64,000 bases of DNA from NCBI GenBank assembly GCA_945907045.1, contig CAMDSH010000001.1:124001-188000 (forward strand), read 5' to 3'. Position 1 is the stretch's first letter; every line of letters begins with the position of its first letter. This DNA comes from Rhizobium sp. Q54 (GTDB lineage Bacteria > Pseudomonadota > Alphaproteobacteria > Rhizobiales > Xanthobacteraceae). The translations under genes and the position numbers were made by a program. Shown one piece after another: positions 1,657 to 37,194 of this stretch. The notes under the pieces are model-generated. The model was given only the letters and a program-made list of their open reading frames with translations, was not told the DNA's origin and ran no database searches.

Positions 1657-2361
1657 TTATTCTCCCAACTGCATTTGACTGAGACTTTTTTTCTGCCGTC
1701 CGCCGCCGTCGAAATTATCCGGTGACAACCAGCGCTCGAAGCGCGCCTTGCGCGCCGGCCAGTCGCCGTCGAGCATCGAAAACCACGCGGTGTCGCGGTT
1801 GCGGCCCTTGGCGATGACGTGCTGCTTCATGATGCATTCGAAACTGAAGCCGTAACGCAACGCCGCGTTGCGCGAGGCGGCGTTTTCCGAATGACATTTC
1901 CATTCATAGCGGCGGTAATGCAGCGTCTCGAACACATGGCGAGCGAGCAGATATTGCGCCTCGGTGGCGAGCGGGGTGCGCATCAGCGCGGGTGTATAGA
2001 CGACGTGGCCGACCTCGCATACGCGCATGTTGGGGCGGATTTCCATGATTGCGAAAATGCCGACGGGGTTCCCCGACGCATCGATGATCGCATACGAGTA
2101 GGGGTCTTCAAGCGCGGCGCGTTGCGGAACCCAGGCGAAAAATTCGGAAGGATTTTCAAACGGCCCGTACGAACTCATGTAGGTCCAGATTTCGTCGTGA
2201 CCTTTCACGGCCTCCCACAAACCGGCGGCATGTTTTGCGGCGAGCTTTTCGATCCGCCCGAAACGGCCTTGCAGTGTGACCGGCCCCGGACGCTGCGCCG
2301 GGGTGGCATCGACAAGTTCACCGACCGGCTGGCCGGTTTTCGGATGCGGAACGGAACTCAC
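1657..2361 (-). CDS. GNAT-family N-acetyltransferase (RimJ/RimL-like)
   Basis: 234-residue protein with the layout of RimJ/RimL-type acetyltransferases (Acetyltransf_3 fold): an N-terminal strand region, the central PVGIFAIMEIRPNMRVCEVG strands, and a C-terminal half with NAASRNAALRYGFSFE, the usual ...N..S..a..k.GF.. acetyl-CoA-side signature. Its start ATG overlaps the stop of the upstream PEP mutase/isocitrate lyase-like gene by 4 bases, and it is followed 2 bases later by the dehydrogenase, so all three are probably translationally coupled. Substrate unknown; such proteins acetylate small amines or protein N-termini. Why it sits in a catabolic operon is unclear. Confidence 0.85.
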   Translation of the reverse strand: MSSVPHPKTGQPVGELVDATPAQRPGPVTLQGRFGRIEKLAAKHAAGLWEAVKGHDEIWTYMSSYGPFENPSEFFAWVPQRAALEDPYSYAIIDASGNPVGIFAIMEIRPNMRVCEVGHVVYTPALMRTPLATEAQYLLARHVFETLHYRRYEWKCHSENAASRNAALRYGFSFECIMKQHVIAKGRNRDTAWFSMLDGDWPARKARFERWLSPDNFDGGGRQKKSLSQMQLGE

Positions 2362-3212
2362 GATTTTGGCCGGCGCGGAAAATCGTCGTGAAAGAATTTA
2401 TTCAGTTCGGCGTTGGGCACCGTTCCAGCGAAGCTGCCGAACTTGCCTTGTTGCGCGATCTCGCGCGCCGAATTGATGAACGCGGTCCACGCAACGCGTG
2501 CAAGCGTGCCGCCGACGCTGATGCGCCGCACGCCCATGCTGGCAAGATCGTCAACTGTAAGAGTATGCGCCGCCGACATCAGAAAATTCACCGGCTTCGG
2601 CGCGACGGCCTTCACCACCGCTTCGATCTGTTCGCGCGTCTTGATGCCGGGTGCGTACAGGCAATCCGCGCCCGCGTCCGAAAATGCACGCAGGCGGCGG
2701 ATGGTTTCGTCGAGATCGGGGCGGTTCTTGATGAAGCCTTCCGTGCGCGCGGTGAAAAGAACATCGCCTCCGGCCTTATCGATGGCCGCGCGCGCGGCGC
2801 GGACGCGCGTCAGCGCAAGATCGAACGGATAAAGCGGATTGGCGTCGTCGCTGGTTGAATCCTCAATCGATAATCCGGCGACGCCGGTCTCGACGCAGAG
2901 CCGCACGCTTTCGGCGACGCCAGCGGGATCGTCGGCATAGCCGCCCTCGAAGTCGGCGTTCACGGGGATATCGCTCACTTCGGCGAGTTCGCGGATATGC
3001 GCCAGCATCTCGTCGCGGCTCACCACGCCATCGGCCAAACCTTGCGCGTGCGCGAAGCCGGAGCTGGTGGTGGCCAATGCCTTGAAACCGAGACCCTGCA
3101 GGTAGCGCGCGCTGCCCGCGCCCCACGGATTGGGAATGACGAAACAGCCGCTCTCGTGCAGCTTGCGGAACGCGCGGCGCTTGTCGGCGATGGATGGATG
3201 GGAACCGGTCAT
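2358..3212 (-). CDS. isocitrate lyase / PEP mutase superfamily enzyme
   Basis: 284 residues with the TIM-barrel signature of the PEP mutase/isocitrate lyase superfamily. FVIPNPWGAGSARYLQGLGF (residues about 24-43) is the substrate-entry strand, NADFEGGYADDP carries the metal-binding acidic residues, and GVAGLSIEDS and LFTARTEGF are further core motifs. It lacks the KKCGH-type catalytic loop of true isocitrate and methylisocitrate lyases, so a 2-methylisocitrate lyase label would be over-specific; family members cleave or rearrange C-C or C-P bonds next to a carboxylate. It follows the dehydratase after 110 bases and overlaps the acetyltransferase by 4 bases. Confidence 0.88.
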   Translation of the reverse strand: MTGSHPSIADKRRAFRKLHESGCFVIPNPWGAGSARYLQGLGFKALATTSSGFAHAQGLADGVVSRDEMLAHIRELAEVSDIPVNADFEGGYADDPAGVAESVRLCVETGVAGLSIEDSTSDDANPLYPFDLALTRVRAARAAIDKAGGDVLFTARTEGFIKNRPDLDETIRRLRAFSDAGADCLYAPGIKTREQIEAVVKAVAPKPVNFLMSAAHTLTVDDLASMGVRRISVGGTLARVAWTAFINSAREIAQQGKFGSFAGTVPNAELNKFFHDDFPRRPKS

Positions 3213-3322
3213 GGCAAACTCACTTCATATAAAATCGGCCGGAGCCTGCCACGGTCGTGCGGAAGAGGACAGCGCATTTCACTGATCGGCAAGATCACTG
3301 AAATCAATCGACTGCATTCCGG

Positions 3323-5134
3323 TTAGTGATTATCTCTAAGCACGCCGCCGTTTTGAGCGACGCGCTGATATTTCACCGCTGGCTTGAGCACCATGCCGTC
3401 GGCGAGCTGATCGACCATCGCGCGCTGGATTTCCTGCCACGGCGTCTGGCTGGCGGGATATTTGTAGCCCCCGCGTTTCTGCAGCGCCACGCGGCGCGTG
3501 GCGAGTTCAGATTTCGAGATCAGAATATCCGCAGTGCCCTTGTTGAGATCGATGCGCACGCGGTCGCCGGTTTTCAGGAGAGCCAGCCCGCCGCCCGCCG
3601 CCGCTTCCGGCGAAGCGTTGAGGATCGAGGGCGAACCGGAAGTGCCGGACTGCCGCCCGTCGCCGATGCAGGGCAGCGCCATGATGCCGCGTTTGATCAG
3701 CGCCGCCGGCGGCTGCATGTTCACCACTTCGCACGAGCCGGGATAGCCGATAGGCCCCGCGCCGCGAATAAACAGCATCGTGCGCTCGTCGATTTTCAGC
3801 GACGCGTCGTCGATGCGGTGGTGATAATCCTCCGGTCCATCGAACACGACGGCGCGGCCTTCGAAGGCGTTGAGGTCTTTCGGGTTGATGAGATAGCGCT
3901 TGCGGAATTCTTCCGAGATCACGCTTGTCTTCATGATGGCGGAGTCGAACAGGTTCCCCGACAGCACGATGAAGCCGGCTTTCTTCTTCATCGGATTCTT
4001 GTATGGCTTGATGACGTCGGCATCCTGCACGCTCGCATTCTTGACGTTCTCGCCCATGGTCTTGCCGTTGACCGTGATTGCGCCGGCATGCAGACGCCGC
4101 GCTTTCAGCAATTCGTTCATCACCGCGGGCAGGCCGCCAGCGCGGTAATATTCCTCGCCGAGATATTTTCCCGCCGGCTGCATGTTGACCAGCAGCGGAA
4201 CGTCGTAGCCGACTTTCTCCCAATCCTGAATCGTCAACTTTACGCCGATGTGGCGCGCTATCGCATTGATGTGCACCGGCGCGTTGGTCGAGCCGCCGAT
4301 CGCCGAGCACGCGACGATGGTGTTCTCGAACGCCTTGCGGGTGAGAATGTCGGAGGGTTTCAAATCCTCACACACGATTTCCACCGCGCGCACGCCGGTC
4401 TCATACGCAATTTGCCCGCGCTCGCGGTAAGGCGCCGGAATGGCGGCGCAGCCGGGCAGCGACATGCCGAGCGCTTCCGCCAGCGCGTTCATGGTTGAGG
4501 CCGTGCCCATGGTGTTGCAGTGGCCAATTGATGGCGCGGACGCCGACGCGATCTCCAGAAATTCCTGATCGTCGATGCGCCCGGCGGCGAGTTCCTCGCG
4601 CGCCTTCCATACCGCCATGCCGGAGCCGCAGCGCTCGCCTTTCCACCAGCCGTTGAGCATCGGGCCGCCGGAGAGAACGATGGCGGGAATGTTCACGGTC
4701 GCCGCCGCCATGATGCAAGCGGGCGTGGTCTTGTCGCAGCCGGTCATCAGCACGACGCCGTCGAGCGGATAGCCGTACAGCACCTCGACGAGACCGAGAT
4801 ACGCGAGGTTGCGGTCGAGCGCGGCGGTCGGGCGCTTGCCGGTTTCCTGAATCGGATGGCAGGGAAATTCGAACGCGATGCCACCGGCCGAGCGGATGCC
4901 TTCGCGCACGCGATGCGCGAGCTCGATGTGATGGCGGTTGCAGGGCGAAAGATCAGACCCCGTTTGCGCGATGCCGATGATCGGCTTGCCGGAGCGAAGT
5001 TCCTTGCTGGTGAGGCCGAAATTGAGATAGCGCTCGAGATAGAGCGCGGTCATGCCGGGGTTTTCGGGATTGTCGAACCAGAGCGCCGAGCGCAATCGCA
5101 GTCCGGATTTTCCCGGTTTTGTTTTCTTCGCCAT
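3323..5134 (-). CDS. IlvD/Edd-family dehydratase (sugar-acid dehydratase type)
   Basis: 603-residue iron-sulphur dehydratase. The three cysteine motifs of the family are present: [17 protein letters not shown] and [11 protein letters not shown], the usual cluster ligands. The length and the N-terminal [20 protein letters not shown] resemble L-arabinonate/D-xylonate dehydratases more than the amino-acid enzyme IlvD (dihydroxy-acid dehydratase) or Edd. The likely reaction is removal of water from an aldonate to give a 2-keto-3-deoxy acid, fitting the sugar-acid-type dehydrogenase downstream. The frame stays open to 5236, but ATG 5134 is chosen because GGGAGG lies just upstream and [11 protein letters not shown] is a natural beginning. 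First gene of the minus-strand operon, divergent from the channel-like gene at 5225. Confidence 0.93.
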
Positions 5135-5224
5135 TTTTTCCTCCCGAAACCGCCAATTGCTTTCACCGCGAGGATGCGCTGAACTGCGCCGCCAACGCAA
5201 GGTGGGAGCGCGCACGGTAAGATC

Positions 5225-5668
5225 ATGTGGAGTCAATTACTCGCCGGCGGCGCAGTCAGCTTCATCAATTTCGGCATTCACGCGGTGATGACCACGCTCA
5301 TCGTCGTCGCCACCGGCCGTACCGCAAGGCGCACCGGCCATTTGCATGTCTTCGGGCGGCTCACCGCGCTGCTCGCCATCACCATGCTGGCGCTGATGAT
5401 CGCGCATGTGGTGGAAATCGCCGTGTGGGCGGCCTTCTACGAAAACGTGGGACTGACCACGGTGAACGCCAACGCCTTTGAGTTCGCGTTCGAGAACTAC
5501 ACCGCGCTCGGTTATGGCGACGCCGTGCCCAACCCCGCGCTGCGCCTGATTGGGCCGGTCACCGCGCTCAATGGCCTGCTGCTGATCGGCTGGTCGGTCG
5601 CCATCATCTTCGAGGTCATGCGGATGGCGGAAGTGCAATTCGAAAAGCCGCGCAAGCGGACCCGTTGA
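5225..5668 (+). CDS. small potassium-channel-like membrane protein
   Basis: 147 residues with three hydrophobic segments (about 5-30, 43-72 and 108-130) and a short re-entrant stretch between the last two containing [21 protein letters not shown] matches the selectivity-filter form T-x-x-G-Y-G-D of potassium channels (Ion_trans_2 family). The protein lacks a voltage sensor and any C-terminal ligand-binding domain, ending in a basic tail soon after the last helix. It would assemble as an oligomer in the inner membrane if it is a true channel. It starts 90 bases from the divergently transcribed dehydratase. An alternative start lies a few codons downstream, but the ATG at 5225 gives a complete first helix. 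Confidence 0.7.
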
Positions 5669-9788: not shown

Positions 9789-10727
9789 CTATTGCTTTAG
9801 CGCAAAGCGGAAGCCGACGAACACGATTCCCAAGCCGACAAGCTGCGGCAGGCTGGGAACGATGCCGAGCGCGAGATAGCCGATGATCAGCGCGAAACCC
9901 GGAACCAGAGCGGGGAAACTCGCCGCGCGTCCGGCGCCGAGCAGGATCACCGCGCGGGTGTAAAGATAAATCGGCAGCGCGCCCGCGAGCAGGCCTTGCA
10001 CAAGAATCTGCAAAATATTTTCCATCAGGCCGAGCCGCAGCACCGTCTCGAGGCCATTAAAAAAATAATACAGCGGCGCGAAGATCATCACCGACAGCGC
10101 GCCGACCACAATCGCAGCATGCGTTCCGGCCACGCGCCACTGCCGCAACAGCGTTCCGAAAATCGCCCAGAAAATTCCGGCGGTGGCGAACAGCAGATCG
10201 CCGCCGACGCCGTGTACGCCGATGGTCGCGAGCGACTCAACGCCGAACACGATCAGTCCGCAGACGATGGCGATGGCGCCGATCGAGCGGCGCGCGGTCA
10301 GCTTCTCGTGCAGCACCAGCGTGGCGAGGATCAGTCCGAACAAAGCCGCGCAGGCCGGCTGGATGGTGGTGCCGTGCCCGAGCGGCACCAGAATGAAACC
10401 GGTGTAGGCGAGCATGGCCTGACCTGGACCGGAGAGAACCGAAAGCACCAGCCCGCGCCACCAGCCCATGCCGCCGAGATCGATAAGCCCCCGCTGCATC
10501 ACGATGGGGAGCATCAGCATTCCGGTCCAGAAGAAGCGATGAAAGGCGAGGTCCGCTGGAGAGAACCCCACCTCGACGCCGTGCTTGGCCGCGACGAAGC
10601 CGGCGGCCCATCCCAGCGAAGCGCCCGCGCCGCAGAGCGAGCCGATCAGAATGGCCGAGGAAGCTGGCTTGGGCTGTTTTGGCAAAAGGGTTGGGCTGCC
10701 ATGCAAGGCAATGGGTGACGGGAACAC
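9789..10727 (-). CDS. EamA-family (DMT) transporter
   Basis: About 312 residues, ten hydrophobic segments in two EamA repeats: first from ILIGSLCGAGASLGWAAGFV to about LVLHEKLTARRSIGAIAIV, second ending LVPGFALIIGYLALGIVPSL. The motif of a loop Glu followed by basic residues (LHEKLTARR) is the typical end-of-repeat signature of drug/metabolite exporters. No ATG is available near the expected start; GTG 10727 is chosen because it leaves a short leader before the first helix, but TTG starts downstream are possible. The frame remains open far upstream across the opposite-strand gene, which is a shadow. It is divergent from the cleavage enzyme at 10794. Confidence 0.82.
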   Translation of the reverse strand: MFPSPIALHGSPTLLPKQPKPASSAILIGSLCGAGASLGWAAGFVAAKHGVEVGFSPADLAFHRFFWTGMLMLPIVMQRGLIDLGGMGWWRGLVLSVLSGPGQAMLAYTGFILVPLGHGTTIQPACAALFGLILATLVLHEKLTARRSIGAIAIVCGLIVFGVESLATIGVHGVGGDLLFATAGIFWAIFGTLLRQWRVAGTHAAIVVGALSVMIFAPLYYFFNGLETVLRLGLMENILQILVQGLLAGALPIYLYTRAVILLGAGRAASFPALVPGFALIIGYLALGIVPSLPQLVGLGIVFVGFRFALKQ

Positions 10728-10793
10728 GGCTGATACTCTAGGATCGCCGTTGGGTCCATTCGCAGAAGTGCATTCCGGGGAGCACGCTTTCTC

Positions 10794-11729
10794 ATGGCGA
10801 AGTCGCGTAAAGTCATCATCACCTGCGCCGTCACCGGCGCTATCCACACGCCGTCGATGTCGCCGCACCTGCCCATCACGCCGCAGCAGATCGCCGATGC
10901 GGCGCTCGGCGCAGCCGAGGCCGGCGCGGCTGTCGTGCACTTGCACGCGCGCAATCCGAAGGACGGCCGCCCGGATCAGACTCCGGAAGCGTTTCTCCCC
11001 TTCGTCAAAGTCATCAAGCAGGCCTCGAACGTCGTCATCAACCTGACCACCGGCGGCGCGCCGACCATGCTGGTGGAGGAGCGCGTGCGCCCCGCCGCGA
11101 CGCTCAAGCCGGAGGTCGCCTCGCTCAACATGGGCACCATGAACTTCGGGCTCTATCCGATGATCCCGCGCTACAAGGGCAAGTTCAAATACGACTGGGA
11201 GGAGCCGTATCTCGAAGGGTCGAAGAAGGGGATGTTCAAGAACACCTTCGCCGATATCGAATACATCCTCACGACCTGCGCGAAGAACAACACCCGCTTC
11301 GAGATCGAGTGCTACGACATCGGCCATCTGTACACGCTGCGGCACTTCCTCGACCGCGGCCTGGTGAAGCCGCCGCTGTTCATCCAGTCCGTGTTCGGCA
11401 TCCTTGGCGGCATCGGCGCGCATGCGGAAGATGTGATGCAAATGAGGCGAACCGCCGACCGTCTGTTCGGCGACCAATATCACTGGTCGGTGCTGGGGGC
11501 CGGCGCCAATCAGATGCGCGTTGCGGCCATGGCGGCCTCGATGGGCGGCAACGTTCGCGTCGGGCTTGAGGATTCGCTCTGGATCGGGCCCGGCAAGCTC
11601 GCCGAATCCAACGCCCAGCAGGTGACGACCGTTCGCAAGATCATCGAGGGCATCGGCCTCGAAATCGCCTCGCCCGACGAAGCGCGCGAAATCCTCTCGC
11701 TCAAGGGCGGAGACAAGGTCGCGTTCTGA
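10794..11729 (+). CDS. beta-keto acid cleavage enzyme (BKACE, DUF849 family)
   Basis: 311-residue TIM-barrel enzyme of the BKACE family, which condenses a beta-keto acid with acetyl-CoA to give acetoacetate and a new acyl-CoA, using a zinc ion. Visible: VIITCAVTGA at the first strand, VVHLHARNP with the zinc histidines, NLTTGGAP, ECYDIGHL, and VGLEDSLW with the conserved glutamate near the end. Family members work in carnitine, lysine and other catabolic routes; the keto acid cannot be deduced here. ATG 10794 gives MAKSRKVIITC. Divergent from the EamA transporter and followed 85 bases later by the antiporter. Confidence 0.93.
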   Translation: MAKSRKVIITCAVTGAIHTPSMSPHLPITPQQIADAALGAAEAGAAVVHLHARNPKDGRPDQTPEAFLPFVKVIKQASNVVINLTTGGAPTMLVEERVRPAATLKPEVASLNMGTMNFGLYPMIPRYKGKFKYDWEEPYLEGSKKGMFKNTFADIEYILTTCAKNNTRFEIECYDIGHLYTLRHFLDRGLVKPPLFIQSVFGILGGIGAHAEDVMQMRRTADRLFGDQYHWSVLGAGANQMRVAAMAASMGGNVRVGLEDSLWIGPGKLAESNAQQVTTVRKIIEGIGLEIASPDEAREILSLKGGDKVAF

Positions 11730-28105: not shown

Positions 28106-29625
28106 AACTGACGTTGCAAAATCCACTGCGCTGGATCGGCCATTTGCTGAGCGTGCTCACCGATCCGGCGCGGCGCGAACGCGCGATGATCGCGGTGCTC
28201 GGCGTCTATACGCTGCTGTGGGCGTGTTACGGCGTCATCGCCAAAGGCAGCCAGGACGTGCACCCCGACATGGCGGAGCTGTTCGCCTGGGCGCGCGAGC
28301 CGTCGTTCGGATATCTCAAGCATCCGCCATTCGCCGCCTGGGTGGTGAAGCTCTGGTTCACGGTGTTTCCGGCTGCCGACTGGTCGTACTACCTGCTCGG
28401 CGCGGTCACGGCGTCGGTTGGCTTATGGATCATCTGGCGGCTCTCCGCGCGTTATCTCGATGCCGGAAAGCGCGTGCTCGCGATCGCGCTGCTCAGTCTG
28501 ATTCCGTTCTTCGGTTTCCACGCGCTCAAATACAACGTCAACACGGTGCTGATTCCGCTATGGGCGGCGACGACGTTGTGTTTCCTGCGCTCGTTTGAGA
28601 CGCGCAGCATTCCGTGGGCCGCGCTCGCGGGCGTGTGCGCCGCCGCCGCGATGCTGGGAAAATACTGGTCGATATTTCTGCTCGCAGGATTGGCGCTGGC
28701 CGCGCTCGCGGATTCTCGCCGTAGCGTTTACTTCCGCTCGGCGGCGCCGTGGGTGACGGTTGCGGCAGGTGCGCTGGTGCTGGCGCCGCATCTGGCGTGG
28801 CTGGTTGCTTACGATTTCGCGCCATTCAGCTACGCCGTCACCTTGCACGGCGCAAAAAATTTCACCGATGCCGCCATGAGCGCGGCGGGCTATCTCGCCG
28901 GTGGCGCGGGTTATGCAGCCCTGCCCGTCGTGCTGGTGCTGATAGCGGCGCGCCCAAGCCGCTCAGCGCTCGCCGAAATGCTTTGGCCGCCCAAGCCTGA
29001 GCGGCGGCTGATCGCAAATGCGTTCTGGCTGCCGTTCCTGTTGCCTGCGCTGGCCGCGCTCGCAACCCGCATCGAAATCAATTCGCTTTGGGCGATGTCG
29101 GCGTGGACGTTATTTCCGGCTGTGCTGCTCGCGCCGCGCATTTCCATCAGCCGCAAGGAAGCCGTGAAAATCCTCGCGCTGGCGGTTGCGTTTCCGCTCG
29201 TCATGCTGGCGGCATCGCCGTTCATCGCCAACTCCATCCACCGCGGCGGCATGCCGAGCGAACAAACTCACGCTAGCGTGCTGGCTCCATCGGTCGAGCG
29301 CACATGGCGCGAGACGACGAACAAGCCGCTGCGTCTTGTTACCGGCGATCTCGCTTATCAGCTGGCGTTTTATTTGCCGGATCGGCCGGGCGCGTTTCCG
29401 GATTTCGACATGAGCAACTCGCCGTGGATTAACGAAGCGCGCATCGCCCGCGACGGCATCGTCATGGTGTGCCGCGCGAGCCACCAAAATTGTATGACGC
29501 ATATGGAGCGCCGCGCGGCGGCTGGCCCGGCAGGAAAGCGCCAGACGGTCACCATCGCGCGCCGGCATTCCGGCAGCGACGGCAACCCCGAGCGTTATCT
29601 GATCGTGACGATCCCGCCCAAATAA
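28102..29625 (+). CDS. PMT/ArnT-like membrane glycosyltransferase, copy 2
   Basis: 507 residues, clearly a paralogue of the gene before it: the same order of motifs (LTDPARRERAM, DMAELFAWAREPSFGYLKHP, MLGKYWSIFLLAGLALAALA, SVYFRSAAPW) at matching positions but divergent in between, so the tandem duplication is old. GT-C fold with the first-loop acidic motif, about ten helices, and a C-terminal soluble tail. The two may act on different positions of the same envelope acceptor or as a heterodimer; both are inference. The stop is followed after 7 bases by a GC-rich hairpin. Confidence 0.88.
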   Translation: MKLTLQNPLRWIGHLLSVLTDPARRERAMIAVLGVYTLLWACYGVIAKGSQDVHPDMAELFAWAREPSFGYLKHPPFAAWVVKLWFTVFPAADWSYYLLGAVTASVGLWIIWRLSARYLDAGKRVLAIALLSLIPFFGFHALKYNVNTVLIPLWAATTLCFLRSFETRSIPWAALAGVCAAAAMLGKYWSIFLLAGLALAALADSRRSVYFRSAAPWVTVAAGALVLAPHLAWLVAYDFAPFSYAVTLHGAKNFTDAAMSAAGYLAGGAGYAALPVVLVLIAARPSRSALAEMLWPPKPERRLIANAFWLPFLLPALAALATRIEINSLWAMSAWTLFPAVLLAPRISISRKEAVKILALAVAFPLVMLAASPFIANSIHRGGMPSEQTHASVLAPSVERTWRETTNKPLRLVTGDLAYQLAFYLPDRPGAFPDFDMSNSPWINEARIARDGIVMVCRASHQNCMTHMERRAAAGPAGKRQTVTIARRHSGSDGNPERYLIVTIPPK

Positions 29626-29632
29626 TTTCCCC

Positions 29633-29650
29633 CTCCCCGCTTGCGGGGAG
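29633..29650. terminator. hairpin between convergent glycosyltransferase and ahcY genes
   Basis: CTCCCCGC-TT-GCGGGGAG, a perfect 8-base-pair stem with a 2-base loop, 7 bases after the glycosyltransferase stop and 12 bases after the ahcY stop. It looks like the first hairpin of a family A repeat standing alone. No T-run follows on the plus strand, so true intrinsic termination is uncertain. Confidence 0.5.
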
Positions 29651-29662
29651 AAGGATGCCTGA

Positions 29663-31087
<1,425 letters not shown>

Positions 31088-31181
31088 TGGGCGGTCCCTG
31101 AATATGGAAATGCACGCGGCACAAGACGGGGCCGCAATCGTGCCGTGGCTATAGCAGGGCCGGGCGTAGGTCGCAATGGAT

Positions 31182-31201
31182 ATATAAGGATTTCTTTATA
31201 T
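31182..31201. promoter_or_regulatory. imperfect palindrome upstream of ahcY, candidate operator
   Basis: ATATAAGGATTTCTTTATAT; eight of ten positions pair between the half-sites. It lies 95-114 bases upstream of the ahcY start. An ArsR-family SAH-responsive repressor (SahR) controls ahcY in several proteobacteria, so this could be its site. It also marks the sharp start of the AT-rich island, so it may instead belong to the island edge. Confidence 0.35.
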
Positions 31202-31207
31202 TGGATT

Positions 31208-31630
31208 TTAGCGCTTTCGGACCGCTCCAGCTGATGCATCATTGAGATATTGAGGTTTGGCTTTTTTTACTTTGTGAGTTGGTTCAATCGAACCATCAGC
31301 GAGAGCTCGCAACTGACGACGGCGCCATTCTAGATTTGCTGTTTTGGCGTTTGGATGATTCTTGTCCAGCCTGTTAACGACAGTTTTGACTTCGGCATCC
31401 TTCATTCCATCAACAATCAAATTGAATATCTCAGCCCCGAGCGCTTTGCGAATATCTTTGACCGAACTTAGATCAGCCGTTTTTGACTTCAGTTGTTTGA
31501 CGACGAGAGTTCTTAGTTTCGTAGCGAGGACACTCGTAGCTTTGACTACGTGTATCTTGATTTCAGGGAAGGCTGCTGGATGAGCGGCAATGGCGCGCAA
31601 CACAGCAAATGCATCCAGATCAAGCGCCAT
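31208..31630 (-). CDS. small basic helical protein of the AT-rich island, function unknown
   Basis: 140 residues, no recognised domain. Predominantly helical-looking, lysine/arginine-rich: LRTLVVKQLKSKTADLSSVK, IFNLIVDGMKDAEVKTVVNR and RRRQLRALADGSIEPTHKVK. The C-terminal 30 residues are strongly basic, which would suit a DNA-binding or adaptor protein. Its ATG is 11 bases inside the end of the ParA-type gene, preceded by an excellent AAAGGAGAT ribosome site, so it is the third member of a tightly coupled operon. Because ParA proteins usually act with a small DNA-binding partner, a ParB-like role is possible; there is no sequence support for the ParB fold itself. Confidence 0.75.
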   Translation of the reverse strand: MALDLDAFAVLRAIAAHPAAFPEIKIHVVKATSVLATKLRTLVVKQLKSKTADLSSVKDIRKALGAEIFNLIVDGMKDAEVKTVVNRLDKNHPNAKTANLEWRRRQLRALADGSIEPTHKVKKAKPQYLNDASAGAVRKR

Positions 31631-32540
31631 GTAATATCTCCTTTACTTCTTCAGCGAGACTTTCGAGGAATGGAGCCGAGCCTTTCCATTTTTGTGAAAG
31701 AGTTGGCCAGGGTTTATCAATGTTTCCATCCACATCGACCTTCTCTACCTTGCCAAGTGCTTCGGCAATTGCGGCCATTTCCGGAACCTCTGTTTCAAAA
31801 ATATTAAATTTCGGCGGTTTCCTCCGGCGTTCAAGGTAGAGTTTTGTGGTCGTTAAATTTTGCTCACGAGTGGGACGTCGACGAGTTATTAAAACGTGCG
31901 GCTTTTTTGGTTTTTTTAATTTTGTTTCGTTTGCGATTTCGCCTGTCCACAGATTGCTGCAAAATGATTGCAAGCCATACGTGGAAAGGAAATCGGGTAT
32001 CGTTGGTACGATGACCATATCAGCGAGCCGCAGACTAACTTCTGTCAACACCGAAATTCCGGGCGGGCAATCGATCAGTATATATCGATAACTAGTGCGG
32101 GTTTGCGAGAGTTGCTCTTTGAGCAAATTATAGATCAGATCAACGATCCGATCGAGGCTAAGACCAGATTTGGTGAGTTTGTATATGAGTTCACGTTCGA
32201 TCAGTCGCAGCCTTGAACTTGAAGCCAGCAACGAAACCGGAAGTTGGGTACCCATGTGTGAGACATTGCTGACGTTAGTTCGAATACAATCTTCAAAATC
32301 AGTCTGTTTCTTGTCGAAGATGCGATCTTGAAGAAAGCCGTCAATCGTATGACCTTTCTTTATAAGACTTCTTAGTGTTGAGCTTCCCGCAAAACAGATT
32401 GATGCGTTTGCTTGAGGGTCAAGGTCGATGACTAGAGTTTCAACTAGTTCGGCGGCAAGAACCTCCGCCAATCCGACCACTGTGGCAGTCTTACCCACTC
32501 CGCCCTTCATGTTGGCTACAGCGATGATTTTACTTTTCAC
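31620..32540 (-). CDS. ParA/MinD-type P-loop ATPase of the AT-rich island
   Basis: 306 residues. The deviant Walker A motif is at the N-terminus (IAVANMKGGVGKTATVVGLA), the switch I region LVIDLDPQANAS follows, and Walker B is YILIDCPPGISVLTEVSLRL with the usual ADMVIVPTIPDFLS beyond. Such ATPases dimerise on ATP and bind DNA or membranes to position plasmids, chromosomes or protein assemblies. The second half (VLITRRRPTREQNL, KPPKFNIFETEVPE) is unusually basic in one loop. The start is GTG 32540, overlapping the stop of the upstream nuclease-like gene by 4 bases (GTGA). Codon use is AT-richer than in flanking genes. Not the chromosomal ParA, which would sit with parB near the origin. Confidence 0.9.
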   Translation of the reverse strand: MKSKIIAVANMKGGVGKTATVVGLAEVLAAELVETLVIDLDPQANASICFAGSSTLRSLIKKGHTIDGFLQDRIFDKKQTDFEDCIRTNVSNVSHMGTQLPVSLLASSSRLRLIERELIYKLTKSGLSLDRIVDLIYNLLKEQLSQTRTSYRYILIDCPPGISVLTEVSLRLADMVIVPTIPDFLSTYGLQSFCSNLWTGEIANETKLKKPKKPHVLITRRRPTREQNLTTTKLYLERRRKPPKFNIFETEVPEMAAIAEALGKVEKVDVDGNIDKPWPTLSQKWKGSAPFLESLAEEVKEILHGA

Positions 32541-33340
32541 TGCCGCGTTCCATTGATTAGAGCGAGAACTTCTCGTCTCTGAGAATCATTTAGCCGTTCA
32601 CGCAGGAACTCATCCACTTCGGAAGCCAAAGTTGTCTTTCGGATAGGCTCCGTCAGAATTTCCCACGTATCGGGATTTTTTGGTTCGCGAATGCGGATGA
32701 GCCCGATACCGTGCTGGTCGCATTGTTTTTGAATGCCAGCCAGCCGTTGCTCCGCTTTCGATTTTGCGGGCAGGTGCCAAACAAGATGACCAAAGTGTGT
32801 AAAACGCGTTTGTGCGAGAGCCTCATAAACTGCAAGATCGGTTGCCCCAACTTCTGTTTTCAATTCGAAGCTATGCACATCCAGTTCAATTCCCGGCAGG
32901 AAGCTAAATTGCTTTATGCTAACTAGCGTGAAATCAGGGCGAGCCCAGCGGATTCCTGGCTTGCCCACGGTGGAGGTATCGTAAACTTTATACTTTGCAC
33001 CCTTCAAAAAATTTGATGTTTCCCGAAACGGTTCATCCAAATATTTTTTCAGCCAAGGCATTAATTTAGCCTCGGGCCAAACACCCGATACATTCGATTC
33101 TACTGGAGCGTTGGCACGACGCTGCAAAGTACGAAAAATTTGACCGCCTTGGCCGCCTTTGAGAGCGAGGTGGCCCTCGCGTCGCAACAATTCGCGAGCG
33201 CGAAGATAGCGATCTTCATCAATCGAGTCGGCTAAAGCCTGTGACAGCATCACCCGCATAACCCGATTCAAAACTGCCGTCCCATCCTCCGGAAGGAGAA
33301 CGAGCATTTGCTTTGAAATTTCTTCGACGGCGACAGGCAC
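32537..33340 (-). CDS. winged-helix plus PD-(D/E)XK nuclease-like protein of the AT-rich island
   Basis: 267 residues from GTG 33340. The first 65 residues look like a winged-helix module (EDRYLRARELLRREGHLALK then the wing GGQGGQIFRTL). The central part has a restriction-type nuclease core: WARPDFTLVSI gives the Asp, LDVHSFELKTE gives the E-x-K about 20 residues later, followed by a helix with Gln (YEALAQTRF) and the strand GHLVWHLPA. This D...ELK...Q layout is that of COG2958/HrgA-like uncharacterised nucleases as I know them. The GTG start has GGGGGGCGG directly before it; an ORF continues upstream to 33376 without good ribosome sites. First gene of the three-gene operon; the likely effector if the system is defensive. 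Confidence 0.72.
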   Translation of the reverse strand: MPVAVEEISKQMLVLLPEDGTAVLNRVMRVMLSQALADSIDEDRYLRARELLRREGHLALKGGQGGQIFRTLQRRANAPVESNVSGVWPEAKLMPWLKKYLDEPFRETSNFLKGAKYKVYDTSTVGKPGIRWARPDFTLVSIKQFSFLPGIELDVHSFELKTEVGATDLAVYEALAQTRFTHFGHLVWHLPAKSKAEQRLAGIQKQCDQHGIGLIRIREPKNPDTWEILTEPIRKTTLASEVDEFLRERLNDSQRREVLALINGTRQ

Positions 33341-33510
33341 CCCGCCCCCCGGCGTTAAACGACACTGCAATAACAACTAAAAAGAGTACCTGAAGATGTT
33401 GCCAAAGTAAGCCGCTTGCTGCCGCAACTTTCAGCGTCTACGGCGGCGTTGGCGCATGGAAAAAGCCGCGGCGTCAACGTAAGATTGGAATGTTTTAAAG
33501 GGGGCGCGCG

Positions 33511-33996
33511 ATGTTTTTGGGTTCACCGACGTACACGTTGATTCATGTGGCGATCAGCCTGGTGGCGCTGGCCGCCGGATTCGTCGTCCTGTTTGGAATG
33601 TTCGGTTCGAAGCGATTGAACGGCTGGACCGCGCTGTTTCTCATCACCACGGTCGCGACCAGTGCAACCGGCTTCGGCTTTCCCTTCAGCAAGCTGCTGC
33701 CCTCGCACATCGTCGGCATCATCTCGCTCGCCGTGCTCGCGGTCGCGATCCTCGCGCGCTATCCGTTTCATCTCGCGGGTTCATGGCGCTGGGTTTATGT
33801 CGTGAGCGCCGCGCTCGCGCTGTATTTCAATGCCTTCGTCGGTGTCGTGCAGTCGTTCCAGAAAATCGCGTTCCTGCAGCCGCTGGCGCCGACGCAATCC
33901 GAGCCGCCGTTCCTCGTGGCGCAATTGGTGCTGATGGGAATTTTCGTGGTGTTGGGATTTATCGCGGTGAAGAAATTTCACCCCGCGATGGCGTGA
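33511..33996 (+). CDS. four-helix membrane protein, function unknown
   Basis: 161 residues with four hydrophobic helices: YTLIHVAISLVALAAGFVVL, TALFLITTVATSATGFGFPF, IVGIISLAVLAVAILARYPF and a last one VLMGIFVVLGFIAVKKF. No charged catalytic residues stand out and I do not recognise a family. It starts after AAAGGGGG, faces away from the island and ends 10 bases from the convergent ptsH gene. GC content is back to the level of the core genome, so it is not part of the island. Confidence 0.8.
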   Translation: MFLGSPTYTLIHVAISLVALAAGFVVLFGMFGSKRLNGWTALFLITTVATSATGFGFPFSKLLPSHIVGIISLAVLAVAILARYPFHLAGSWRWVYVVSAALALYFNAFVGVVQSFQKIAFLQPLAPTQSEPPFLVAQLVLMGIFVVLGFIAVKKFHPAMA

Positions 33997-34006
33997 GCGC
34001 TCCGCG

Positions 34007-34306
34007 CTAGTCTTCTTCGCCGAAGCCGCTGCTCACCAGCGCGACGATGGCGTCCATCACTTCCGCCGCCTGCCGTCCGCTCGCCACCACGGTGATCGAT
34101 GTGCCGGTGCCGGCGGCGAGCATCATCAGCCCCATGATCGAAGTGCCGCCGACGGTCTCGTTGTTACGGCTGACTTTCACGTCGGCCTCAAAGCGCTCGA
34201 CGCATTGCACGAATTTCGCCGAGGCGCGGGCGTGCAGACCTTTTTTATTGACGATTTCGATCACCTGCGTGATCGCGCCGGCTTGAGGCGAGCCGGGATC
34301 GCTCAT
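34007..34306 (-). CDS. ptsH: HPr phosphocarrier protein
   Basis: 99 residues. KKGLHARASAKF carries the phosphorylated histidine, and the serine-phosphorylation region by HPr kinase is GGTSIMGLMML. In Hyphomicrobiales this HPr belongs to a regulatory phosphotransferase system (PtsP-HPr-EIIA) that signals nutrient status rather than importing sugar. Its ATG overlaps the end of the EIIA gene by 4 bases. Confidence 0.97.
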   Translation of the reverse strand: MSDPGSPQAGAITQVIEIVNKKGLHARASAKFVQCVERFEADVKVSRNNETVGGTSIMGLMMLAAGTGTSITVVASGRQAAEVMDAIVALVSSGFGEED

Positions 34307-34704
34307 TTACCGGTGAGAACCCGGCTGGCGATGGTGCAGTATTTGCGCCCCGCTTCCTGCGCGGCGCTCACGGCGTCGGCGAGCGGGCAGGTCTCACGCA
34401 CTTTGGCGAGCTTGATCAGCATGGGAAGGTTGATGCCGGCCAGCACTTCGACCTTGGGCTGGCTCATCACGGAGATGGCGAGGTTGGAGGGCGTGCCGCC
34501 GAACATGTCGGTGAGGATTGCGACGCCTTCGCCGCTGTCCACCCGTTTGACCGCGTCGATGATGTCCTTGCGCGCCTGCTCGACGTCATCGTCGGGGCCG
34601 ATGGTCACGGCCTCGATCTGACGCTGCGGCCCCACGACGTGTTCGAGCGCCGAGCGGAATTCGACGGCCAGGCGGCCGTGCGTGACGAGAACGAGACCGA
34701 TCAT
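34303..34704 (-). CDS. manX: PTS EIIA component of the mannose family (regulatory)
   Basis: 133 residues. MIGLVLVTHGRLAVEFRSAL carries the active histidine, GVAILTDMFGGTPSNLAIS is the mannose-class EIIA signature and GINLPMLIKLA follows. In the order Hyphomicrobiales this soluble EIIA takes phosphate from HPr and, without EIIB/EIIC partners, acts as a regulator coupled to HprK and ChvG/ChvI. ATG 34704 is chosen because the family starts MIGLVL; the longer frame to 34830 is unused upstream DNA. The ribosome site GGAGATTTCCGG is adequate. Confidence 0.95.
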   Translation of the reverse strand: MIGLVLVTHGRLAVEFRSALEHVVGPQRQIEAVTIGPDDDVEQARKDIIDAVKRVDSGEGVAILTDMFGGTPSNLAISVMSQPKVEVLAGINLPMLIKLAKVRETCPLADAVSAAQEAGRKYCTIASRVLTGK

Positions 34705-34790
34705 CCGGAAATCTCCGCGGACATTCGGGTGCGCCACACGAAAGGGGGCAGGTTCATGAACATCCGAAGGCCGAGAACAAAAGCTTATGT

Positions 34791-34802
34791 CCCTATATAG
34801 GG
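34791..34802. promoter_or_regulatory. perfect palindrome CCCTATATAGGG upstream of the EIIA gene
   Basis: Twelve-base perfect palindrome located 87 bases upstream of the EIIA start, in the 232-base gap after hprK. Could be an operator or part of a core promoter region (TATATA). No matching regulator known to me. Confidence 0.25.
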
Positions 34803-34936
34803 GCGATGCTGCACTGCGATAAGAGGGCAAGGCAAGGGGCTCGGATGGGGTGTTTTCGAGAGGCCGATCCTAAGCCGTTATGGTTACTTTTTCCCCACCG
34901 GAGGGAGTTGCGGGGTAGCGCAGGCCCCGGCGCAGG

Positions 34937-35392
34937 TCAATTCCCGGCTGGGACAGTGCCCAGGAAAGCCAATACAAAAGGCAGGGCGTCCATGCCTGCT
35001 GCGACCGCTAGCCGCGGCAGCCGGATGCCGGAGAGCGTCGTTTCCAGCGCCTCCGCCGTGGGCAGGCGTCCGGCGTCCGTAGCCGCCAGATCGACCACCA
35101 GCCCCACCGCGGCCAACGGCTCGAACGGCAGATGGCGGATGCCGAGACCGCGAATTTCCAGCAGGCCTTCAAGCTTGGCAGCGGGGCGGACCAGCAATCG
35201 GCCATGCGCGGCTTCGATATGCGCGCGGTCGTCCGCGATCAGCCGGGCAAAGGGTAACGCGCCTGTTCCGGCAGCCTGCAGCAGAGCGAGCGCCAGCCGC
35301 GACTTGCCGGAGCCCGACGGGCCGCGGATCAGCGCGGCCTTGGCTCCGATGAGAACCGCAGAGGCATGAATAGTCGCGCCGGCGTCCGCCAT
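34937..35392 (-). CDS. hprK: HPr kinase/phosphorylase, short alphaproteobacterial form
   Basis: 151 residues, half the length of the Firmicutes enzyme because the N-terminal domain is absent, as is normal in alphaproteobacteria. Walker A RGPSGSGKSRLALALL, capsule-type motif region RLIADDRAHIE, and the signature GLLEIRGLGIRHLPFEP are present. Phosphorylates HPr on serine and links PTS signalling to ChvG/ChvI. ATG 35392 overlaps the chvG stop by one base (TGATG), so translation is coupled. Confidence 0.95.
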   Translation of the reverse strand: MADAGATIHASAVLIGAKAALIRGPSGSGKSRLALALLQAAGTGALPFARLIADDRAHIEAAHGRLLVRPAAKLEGLLEIRGLGIRHLPFEPLAAVGLVVDLAATDAGRLPTAEALETTLSGIRLPRLAVAAGMDALPFVLAFLGTVPAGN

Positions 35393-37194
35393 CACATCGC
35401 CGGCAGCCGCACGATGAAGCGCGCGCCCAGCACCGGCGGCGTGGCGGATGCGGGTGCAACGCCGAGACGGTTTTCGACGTTCACGCTGCCGCCGTGCGCT
35501 TCCACGATCTGCTTGGAGATGGAGAGACCGAGCCCTGAGTTATGGCCGAAGGAATGTTGCGGGCGGTCGGTGTAGAAACGCTCGAAAATCTTTTCCAGCG
35601 CATCGGGGCGGATGCCGGGGCCGTCGTCATCGACAACGATTTCGACTTCGTTCTTCAGCCGCCGCGCGGTCACGCGCACAGTGCCGCCCGGCGGCGAGAA
35701 CGAACGCGCGTTGTCGATCAAATTGCTGATCACTTGCCCGATGCGGGAATCGTGTCCCGGCACCGCGAACGCTGCCGGTGCGCCGCCTTCGAAGGCGAGC
35801 GTAACGCTGACACGGTTTTCGTGCTGCACTTCGTTGCCGACCGTCACCAATGTCTCGAGCAGTTCGGCGAGATTGACCGGCGCGACTTCCTGCCGCTGCA
35901 ACTCGGCGTCGAGGCGGCTGGCGTCGGAAATATCCGAGATCAGCCGGTCGAGCCGCTGCACGTCGTGCTCAATGACGGCGAGCAACCGCGCGCGGCTTTC
36001 CTCCGACTTTGTCATCGGCAGCGTTTCCACCGCCGATCGCAATGACGTGAGCGGATTTTTCAGCTCATGCGCGACATCGGCGGCGAAGCTTTCGATCGCC
36101 TCGATGCGGGAATAAAGCGCATTGGTCATGTCGCGCAGCGTGCCGGACAGATGCCCGATTTCGTCGCGCCGCCTGGTGAAATCCGGGATTTCGACGCGCG
36201 AGCGGATGCGCCTTCGCACGCGTTCTGCGCCGTCGGCGAGCCTGCGCACCGGGCCGGCGATGGTGCCGGCGAGCAGCATCGAGAGCACCACCATCACGCT
36301 GGCGGCGACCAGGAACACTTTGACGATGGCGAGCCGCTCGGCTTCGACGATCTGGTCGATGTCGGCGCCCTGCGTCGAGAGCATCAGCGCGCCGCGCACC
36401 GCGCGGAAACGCTGCACCGGCACGGCGACCGAAACGATCACCTCGCCGCGGTCGTTGATGCGAACGATGCTGGCGTGCAGCCCGTTGAGCGCCTGCACCA
36501 CTTCCGGGTATCCGGTGCCGTTTTCCGGTCCCAACTCGCGGTAGAGCGGAAGGTCGCCGCGGCTGAGCCAGCGGCGCATGGCGATGAAGGTGCGTTCCGC
36601 GATGCCCGGTTTTTCCACGTTCGGCGGCGGCAGATCGAAGCGCAGCACGTCGCCGCGGCCATACAGGCTGCGGCTGTCGAGGATGAGCACGCCATCGCGG
36701 TCGTAGATACGCGCGCGCGTCTTGGTCGGTGACACAAGGCGGCGCAGCACCGGCGCCACGCGCTCCGGGTTGATCGGGAATTCGAGGCCGGAAAGCGCGT
36801 CGTCAGGCGGCCCGTAACTTTCGCCCGCTTGCAACTCCAGCAGCCGTTCCGGATCGATGGTGATGGAATCGGTTTCCACCGTGGCGGAGGCGGCGATGGC
36901 GCCGGCGATGATCTCGCCCTGCACCAGCAGACTCTGCACGCGCGCGTCGATCAATCCCGCGCGGAATTGCGAGAGATACAAAATGCCGATCACCAGCGTG
37001 AGCAGGCCGGCGAGATTGAGGAAGACGATGCGGCGCGTCAGCGACGAGAAGCTTTGCGCGACGAAAAAATGCCACGCCGGGCGCACCATGTTCTTGATGC
37101 GCTCGAAGCGTCCGCGCGCGGGCGGCGGCGGAGTTTCGCCGGCTTGCCCCGCTTCGGCGTTGGGTGCCGTGATGTCTGTGGTTCGATCGAGCAC
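35392..37194 (-). CDS. chvG: ChvG (ExoS) sensor histidine kinase
   Basis: 600-residue inner-membrane sensor of the acid/host-signal two-component system. Pro-rich cytoplasmic N-terminus, helix 1 at about 55-75 (IVFLNLAGLLTLVIGILYL), a periplasmic domain of about 200 residues, helix 2 near 290-310, a HAMP domain (AGPVRRLADGAERVRRRIRS), the phospho-acceptor VAHELKNPLTSLRSAVETLP, and an ATPase domain with IDNARSFSPPGG and GLGLSISKQIVEAHGG. In Agrobacterium the periplasmic inhibitor ExoR controls ChvG; ExoR is not in this window. It is followed by hprK with overlapping stop/start. Confidence 0.97.
   Translation of the reverse strand: MLDRTTDITAPNAEAGQAGETPPPPARGRFERIKNMVRPAWHFFVAQSFSSLTRRIVFLNLAGLLTLVIGILYLSQFRAGLIDARVQSLLVQGEIIAGAIAASATVETDSITIDPERLLELQAGESYGPPDDALSGLEFPINPERVAPVLRRLVSPTKTRARIYDRDGVLILDSRSLYGRGDVLRFDLPPPNVEKPGIAERTFIAMRRWLSRGDLPLYRELGPENGTGYPEVVQALNGLHASIVRINDRGEVIVSVAVPVQRFRAVRGALMLSTQGADIDQIVEAERLAIVKVFLVAASVMVVLSMLLAGTIAGPVRRLADGAERVRRRIRSRVEIPDFTRRRDEIGHLSGTLRDMTNALYSRIEAIESFAADVAHELKNPLTSLRSAVETLPMTKSEESRARLLAVIEHDVQRLDRLISDISDASRLDAELQRQEVAPVNLAELLETLVTVGNEVQHENRVSVTLAFEGGAPAAFAVPGHDSRIGQVISNLIDNARSFSPPGGTVRVTARRLKNEVEIVVDDDGPGIRPDALEKIFERFYTDRPQHSFGHNSGLGLSISKQIVEAHGGSVNVENRLGVAPASATPPVLGARFIVRLPAM

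Follow-up and report, generated by a model that had tools for sequence, protein, structure and literature searches.

A compact set of three minus-strand genes at positions 31208-33340 of the window (the whole stretch of 64,000 nucleotides from Rhizobium sp. Q54 that was analysed) encodes a predicted nuclease (A), a ParA ATPase (B) and a small basic protein (C). Judged by comparison with other genomes, the trio appears to be a rare, conserved unit that has no name and whose members can be exchanged or lost independently of each other, a behaviour to be expected from something that attacks foreign DNA. We give about an even chance to the reading, drawn from sequence comparison and predicted folds, that the trio constitutes a DNA-targeting system not described before, most likely directed against phages or other incoming DNA, in which A would serve as the effector and B and C as an exchangeable control and recognition part. 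The nuclease fold of A, the ParA residues of B, co-conservation, purifying selection, phage-borne variants, module exchange, the occurrence of B-C without A and the match of the A winged helix to a DNA methyltransferase all support this reading. The three genes are as follows:

32537-33340, minus strand: gene A, predicted winged helix plus PD-(D/E)XK nuclease (ORF, 19-homologue alignment, AlphaFold2, Foldseek)
31620-32540, minus strand: gene B, ParA/MinD-type deviant-Walker ATPase, 306 aa (Pfam AAA_31, alignment, PDB relatives)
31208-31630, minus strand: gene C, small basic protein, predicted helical with a basic tail, 140 aa (alignment, model, charge)

A preliminary description, made from the sequence alone, had proposed an AT-rich operon of three minus-strand genes with 4- and 11-base overlaps, an RPDF...FELK core in the first product, a ParA Walker motif in the second and a basic third product. 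The ORF positions agree with this arrangement, with overlaps of 4 bases (GTGA) between A and B and 11 bases between B and C, and all three protein features were found, the Walker motif of B reading KGGVGKT. The trio has a GC content of 47.6% and its 3-kb flanks have 63.2% and 64.5%, and the lowest-GC 1-kb bins of the window are those of 31-33 kb; homologous trios fall below both of their flanks at 12 of 15 loci, so low GC is common without being universal. Translation of A from a GTG at 33340 gives 267 aa, and from the most upstream start, a TTG at 33376, 279 aa; we favour the GTG because 14 intact homologues (L011-L023 and L025) measure 267-277 aa. The trio is present in a single copy in its own genome, no Rfam family matched within 29000-35500, and a chance origin is excluded because the same three genes recur in the same order in other genomes.

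Predicted functions of the three proteins

No Pfam, NCBIfam, PADLOC or PHROGs family matched protein A above cut-off. An AlphaFold2 model based on 19 homologues (mean pLDDT 88.7) begins with a helix-helix-helix-strand-strand unit, which we read as a winged helix, and continues into an alpha/beta core. A Foldseek search of the PDB with this confident model pointed to a restriction-endonuclease-like core fold, returning AF2093 (E 1.9e-5), MspJI (E 0.003, probability 1.00) and AspBHI, with winged-helix proteins at lower ranks; since the whole-chain TM-scores by query length of the named matches and the lower ranks are low (0.18-0.38), the assignment of the nuclease fold rests on the domain and the motif. 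The D...(D/E)xK active-site motif is present, and four residues, E102, D148, E171 and K173, stay unchanged in 19 of the 19 homologues aligned, an alignment that takes in one member without a recognisable winged helix (L028) and, for another (L027), only the stretch after an in-frame stop. A is thus predicted to be a PD-(D/E)XK nuclease with a winged helix, in agreement with the winged-helix-like N-terminus and nuclease core suggested earlier. Some large proteins, with open frames of 1049-1984 aa, have an N-terminus to which the winged helix of A likewise matches; a type III-like DNA methyltransferase is among them. In the L027 homologue (4397-5254) the in-frame stop separates the winged-helix and nuclease parts, and the gene adjoins one that looks uvrB-like by eye.

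MspJI and AspBHI are modification-dependent restriction endonucleases that carry an SRA-like recognition domain; the predicted nuclease fold of A aligns with theirs, whereas A has a winged helix and comes coupled with a ParA ATPase and C. The best viral fold match of A, obtained by Foldseek against BFVD, is to MmcB-like phage proteins (best E 1.4e-6), putative DNA repair nucleases; A has no Pfam or NCBIfam match to that family, and the operon is different. The fold match favours a DNA repair or recombination cassette, in which A would act like the MmcB-family repair nucleases and be loaded by the ParA ATPase, as does the placement of the trios of L018-L020 ahead of recJ (Pfam RecJ_OB in L018 and L020, with both of which a locus lacking A, L113, is syntenic). 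However, no repair genes were noticed at the other sites except a helicase beside the L022 trio, and repair genes are normally not so patchy in their distribution. We consider a repair role very improbable.

The ParA Walker motif expected in the second gene is borne out. B matches Pfam AAA_31 (E 7e-33), its deviant Walker residues (GGVGK, D39, D41 and D157) are invariant in 18 of 18 aligned sequences, the signature Lys12 is kept in at least 90% of them, and the nearest solved structures by sequence in the PDB are Soj/ParA, so that B is predicted to be an ATPase-competent ParA-type protein; PADLOC gave only weak superfamily-level matches for it. The small, basic character noted for the third protein likewise held, C having 140 aa, a pI of 10.3 and a net charge of +13, and its homologues are basic in 18 of 18 cases (pI 9.8-10.3). 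The model of C (mean pLDDT 85.2) shows a predicted helical core and a low-confidence basic tail. No Pfam or NCBIfam model matched C above cut-off, the best PDB sequence match had an E value of 0.29, Foldseek found no fold match below E 1, and PADLOC gave a single weak partial match, to the JukA model (E 0.0012, 16.5 bits). In one homologue of C (L022, 9213-9929) the helical domain is apparently duplicated, giving two profile matches.

B shares its deviant Walker motifs with the ParA/Soj proteins of ParABS systems, which raises the possibility that B and C form a ParA-type positioning or partition pair for chromosomal cargo or for an ancient integrated element, with A as an accessory DNA-processing enzyme outside defence. 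The closeness of B in sequence to Soj/ParA among solved structures, the basic C in all 18 cases and the ability of B-C to stand alone would fit such a role. Unlike in ParABS, though, the partner C is not of a known ParB type, and the trio is chromosomal and lies beside a nuclease. C belongs to no known partner family or fold, searches of Pfam, NCBIfam, the PDB and predicted folds having revealed no ParB or RHH-type centromere-binding partner in it; the two intergenic stretches beside the locus hold no parS-like repeats, only one short direct repeat pair and a palindrome at ahcY; the presence of the trio is patchy (12 of 391 genomes); and plasmid searches gave no match to C and one partial match to A, on an Ensifer replicon where that spot carries no gene annotation. 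Such a positioning role is in our judgement unlikely. The preliminary description had also allowed for a plasmid-partition locus with a ParB-type third protein; C matches no ParB-type family, and a partition locus of known type was rejected given the lack of a ParB-type partner and of parS-like repeats in the two adjacent intergenic stretches and the one partial plasmid match.

Co-conservation, exchange and loss of the genes

A profile search of genome contigs for A gave 19 loci, with A-B-C in order at 15 (L011-L025, L024 being decayed) and A-B at the other four, which are distant; three of these four have a different small ORF directly after B and one lies at a contig edge. After duplicates were merged, 18 intact non-redundant trios were obtained (the window, L011-L023, L025, L073, L076 and L077). 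The decayed trio (L024, 1064-2394), in a USC-alpha MAG, adjoins a tpiA-like gene, where Methylocapsa (L017) carries an intact one, and a transposase-like ORF lies upstream of it (all by eye). Among 391 family genomes the A profile matches 19; in the strong matches (>370 bits) B and C are adjacent in 12 of 12, and the remaining seven comprise two homologues without B within 1.5 kb, four winged helices in large proteins and one short fragment. Strong trios were found in 2 of 265 genomes of one genus and 2 of 16 of another, and class-wide and phylum-wide samples gave weak A matches only (4 of 385 and 9 of 398 genomes, G000 left out). Distant A-like nucleases without a detected ParA in the fetched flanks exist, implying that A is part of a wider nuclease family in which the coupling to ParA marks the trio branch. 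The omega values in computable trio pairs are 0.06-0.42, many of them at high dS, and comparison shows the trio genes to be, by these ratios, under purifying selection.

Seen from C, co-conservation is less strict. A C profile matched 9 of 150 relatives, six with the trio and three (G063, G082 and G087) in which the frames of B and C are open and A gave no match, so the expectation that the three genes travel together stands for the partners of strong A genes, in all 12 cases, and does not hold strictly for A itself. One A-less locus (L111) is syntenic with the trio locus L090 and has about 140 bases in the place of A, another (L113) is syntenic with L018, and a search there for a remnant of A gave nothing beyond chance level (best tblastn E 0.08). 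Omega is 0.20-0.56 in two A-minus pairs, and in A-plus pairs B and C have values of 0.06-0.38; because dS is high, this is only suggestive of a weaker constraint on B-C in loci that lack A. In the clade of the window, A without B-C was not seen while B-C without A occurs, a pattern that fits an A that is useless or harmful without its controllers. The persistence of B-C without A could also mean that the pair has a function of its own.

The clearest rearrangement is found between two sister genomes (L019 and L020), the only two of their genus that the analysis covered; their A is 96% identical. Their DNA is about 94% identical upstream, through A and through about 160 bases of B, only about 50% identical over B after about codon 54 and over all of C, and about 93% identical again from within 100 bases past C. 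A has a dN/dS of 0.10 at a dS of 0.19, whereas the dS of the swapped part of B is 1.54. At the sequence level, the difference reads as if another allele had taken the place of B-C while A was retained; faster evolution of B-C as its cause was rejected because synonymous divergence is also high in the swapped part. This clean swap is a single case, from two metagenome-assembled genomes that by their names belong to one sample series, and a misassembly behind it is unlikely. Over all 18 trios, the identities of B2 (part of B) and C correlate with r 0.67, no stronger than those of A and B2 (0.70) once the L019-L020 pair is left out, and co-evolution of B2 and C apart from A was not upheld without that pair. 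Comparison of the loci thus shows A to be detachable and B-C to be exchangeable, the latter in one clear case.

The same observations bear on a toxin-antitoxin-like addiction or abortive module, in which A would be a DNase toxic to its own cell, restrained by B-C and set free by infection or by loss of the locus, and the A-less B-C loci would be orphan antitoxins protecting against the A of relatives. The constant company of strong trio-type A genes by B-C (12 of 12) beside the three of nine cases of B-C without A, the translational overlaps of the genes and the phage-borne variants described below are what such a module would predict. Exchange of most of B and C with A held constant is nevertheless awkward if B-C must bind A specifically, and we know of no precedent for a ParA ATPase as an antitoxin. 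We regard an addiction module as an unlikely account of the trio.

Genomic sites and phage-borne variants

The trio of the window lies between HPr/PTS-IIA/HprK/ChvG-ChvI-like genes and ahcY (names by eye and synteny), in an interval that consists of the trio and a divergent ORF. Two neighbouring features border it:

33511-33996, plus strand: 161-aa membrane-protein-like ORF (ORF call), divergent, between the trio and HPr; neighbour
31182-31201, no strand assigned: palindrome ATATAAAGAAATCCTTATAT, at the insert edge, upstream of ahcY; neighbour, outside the system

Neither Pfam nor PADLOC matched the 161-aa ORF and the fetched syntenic loci contain no relative of it; it is probably a separate insertion. 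The palindrome begins 6 bases past the stop codon of C, and a similar form is found at six of six displayed empty sites; it is probably a SahR-type operator, SahR with a 20-bp palindrome being described for alphaproteobacteria in PMC4239095.

The trio is absent at 20 of 20 other same-genus HPr-ahcY sites examined (L036-L055, drawn from the 40 genomes with an ahcY match among 43 searched). Ten of these have gaps of 111-157 bp, three have gaps of 287-417 bp without a called gene, and seven hold unrelated genes, among them some that by eye look glutathione-peroxidase-like, TadE-like, LysR-like and cytochrome-like. In the closest empty relative by ChvG identity (L050, 90.7%) the gap is 129 bases. 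The HPr-ahcY interval is a permissive insertion point; a defence hotspot at this place was rejected, as 13 of the same-genus sites have no called gene and seven have unrelated ones. Three relatives carry the trio at the same place: the match is direct in L013, while the HPr side of L012 and the ahcY side of L011 have other genes. The trio is therefore at least partly inherited there. The earlier view of an acquired operon thus fits the absence from all 20 other same-genus sites and fits less well with the shared location in three relatives.

Further recurrent places of the trio, with flanking genes named by eye where they have no Pfam match, are near AzlC and glcD-like genes (L014, L016 and L090) and between secG-like and tpiA genes (L017 and L024), and trios were also found in Methylobacterium (L023 and L025); the surroundings are usually housekeeping genes. 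With PADLOC (E <= 0.001), 5 of 27 flanking proteins, in 4 of 12 trio loci, gave matches; the proteins were hand-picked and have no background rate, so that an enrichment of defence genes near trios is neither proved nor excluded. Directly upstream of the L021 trio (1853-3426), two proteins match PADLOC candidate M41/M30 (best 4.6e-105). By eye, this pair looks TcmP-like and Gp37/68-like. Just downstream of the L016 trio (10218-10916) lies a match to candidate S40 (1e-78), which may simply be a common protein, as a similar-looking ORF is present at L092 (15265-15894, by eye). The helicase beside the L022 trio matches M16A (3e-19) and also RecD-like models, and a neighbour in L023 has a short 2OG-domain match. 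A location in defence islands is weakly supported, with these five matches in four of the 12 loci on one side and the housekeeping appearance of the other flanks on the other.

Distant variants, A'-B-C', are borne by phages. One, in a Hyphomicrobium MAG (L028), follows head-decoration, protease, tape-measure and neck genes, and another, on a viral contig (L056, the same as L085), has a tape-measure gene on one side and genes for an integrase, an excisionase and a primase on the other. Homology between C and the small third proteins of these variants was not detected (hhalign probability 1.7%). L056 was the only contig with a relative in the scans of viral contigs, phage records gave no match to the A of the window or to the A' of L056, and the plasmid searches gave none to this A' either.

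Proposed mechanism and relation to known systems

In a DNA-targeting system of this kind, ATP-bound B together with C would form a DNA-binding complex for recognition or licensing, and A would be recruited to this complex and then cut the DNA. The part of B-C beyond the ParA Walker region would be the changing part that decides what is recognised, with A as the constant, detachable effector. More specifically, it is possible, and we propose it tentatively, that the ParA-type ATPase and the basic adaptor make up a swappable unit for recognition, one that brings an unchanging PD-(D/E)XK nuclease to foreign DNA, so that specificity would change when strains exchange the ParA body and adaptor, in the way that type I restriction systems swap hsdS alleles. 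Several observations speak against the DNA-targeting reading. Most examined neighbours are not defence genes, the single clean exchange comes from metagenome assemblies, B-C coupling gives no independent statistical signal without the L019-L020 pair, the phage-borne C' is not detectably homologous to C, and the scans of viral contigs gave a single contig with a relative and the phage records none.

Gabija, Septu, OLD and similar defence systems combine a nuclease with a P-loop NTPase. The trio shares this layout, but its ATPase is of ParA type and no PADLOC model matches A. As for Juk (jumbo phage killer), the partial JukA match of C is close to what chance would give, and nothing else in the operon matched Juk. 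PADLOC-DB 2.0.0 gave nothing for A, weak superfamily-level matches for B and the one weak partial JukA match for C; with Pfam and NCBIfam adding nothing usable for A or C, assignment to a known defence family was rejected. The earlier statement that no named system could be matched therefore holds for PADLOC-DB 2.0.0, Pfam, NCBIfam and the literature searched. The titles and abstract openings returned by full-text searches of open-licence PMC articles describe no ParA ATPase-nuclease operon, an absence that is weak evidence; the word ParA was not found in the accessible part of PMC12839542, and an association with ParA is said to be absent for ParB-like nucleases in PMC5512222. We thus found no described ParA-nuclease operon in the family libraries and among the titles and abstract openings covered.

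As no curated model in the searched libraries matches A or C, the system will probably be overlooked by annotation pipelines. The trio is a variation on the nuclease-plus-NTPase layout, and could turn out to be new in category if it is truly the ParA engine that directs the nuclease. Plasmids, chromosomes and other cargo are what ParA ATPases are known to move, and a lasting genetic link between such an ATPase, a nuclease and an adaptor open to exchange would mean that the same engine also polices DNA. The natural A-less and module-swapped alleles offer ready-made controls for laboratory tests; if the reading is true, partition machinery would here have been recast as a retargetable restriction system.
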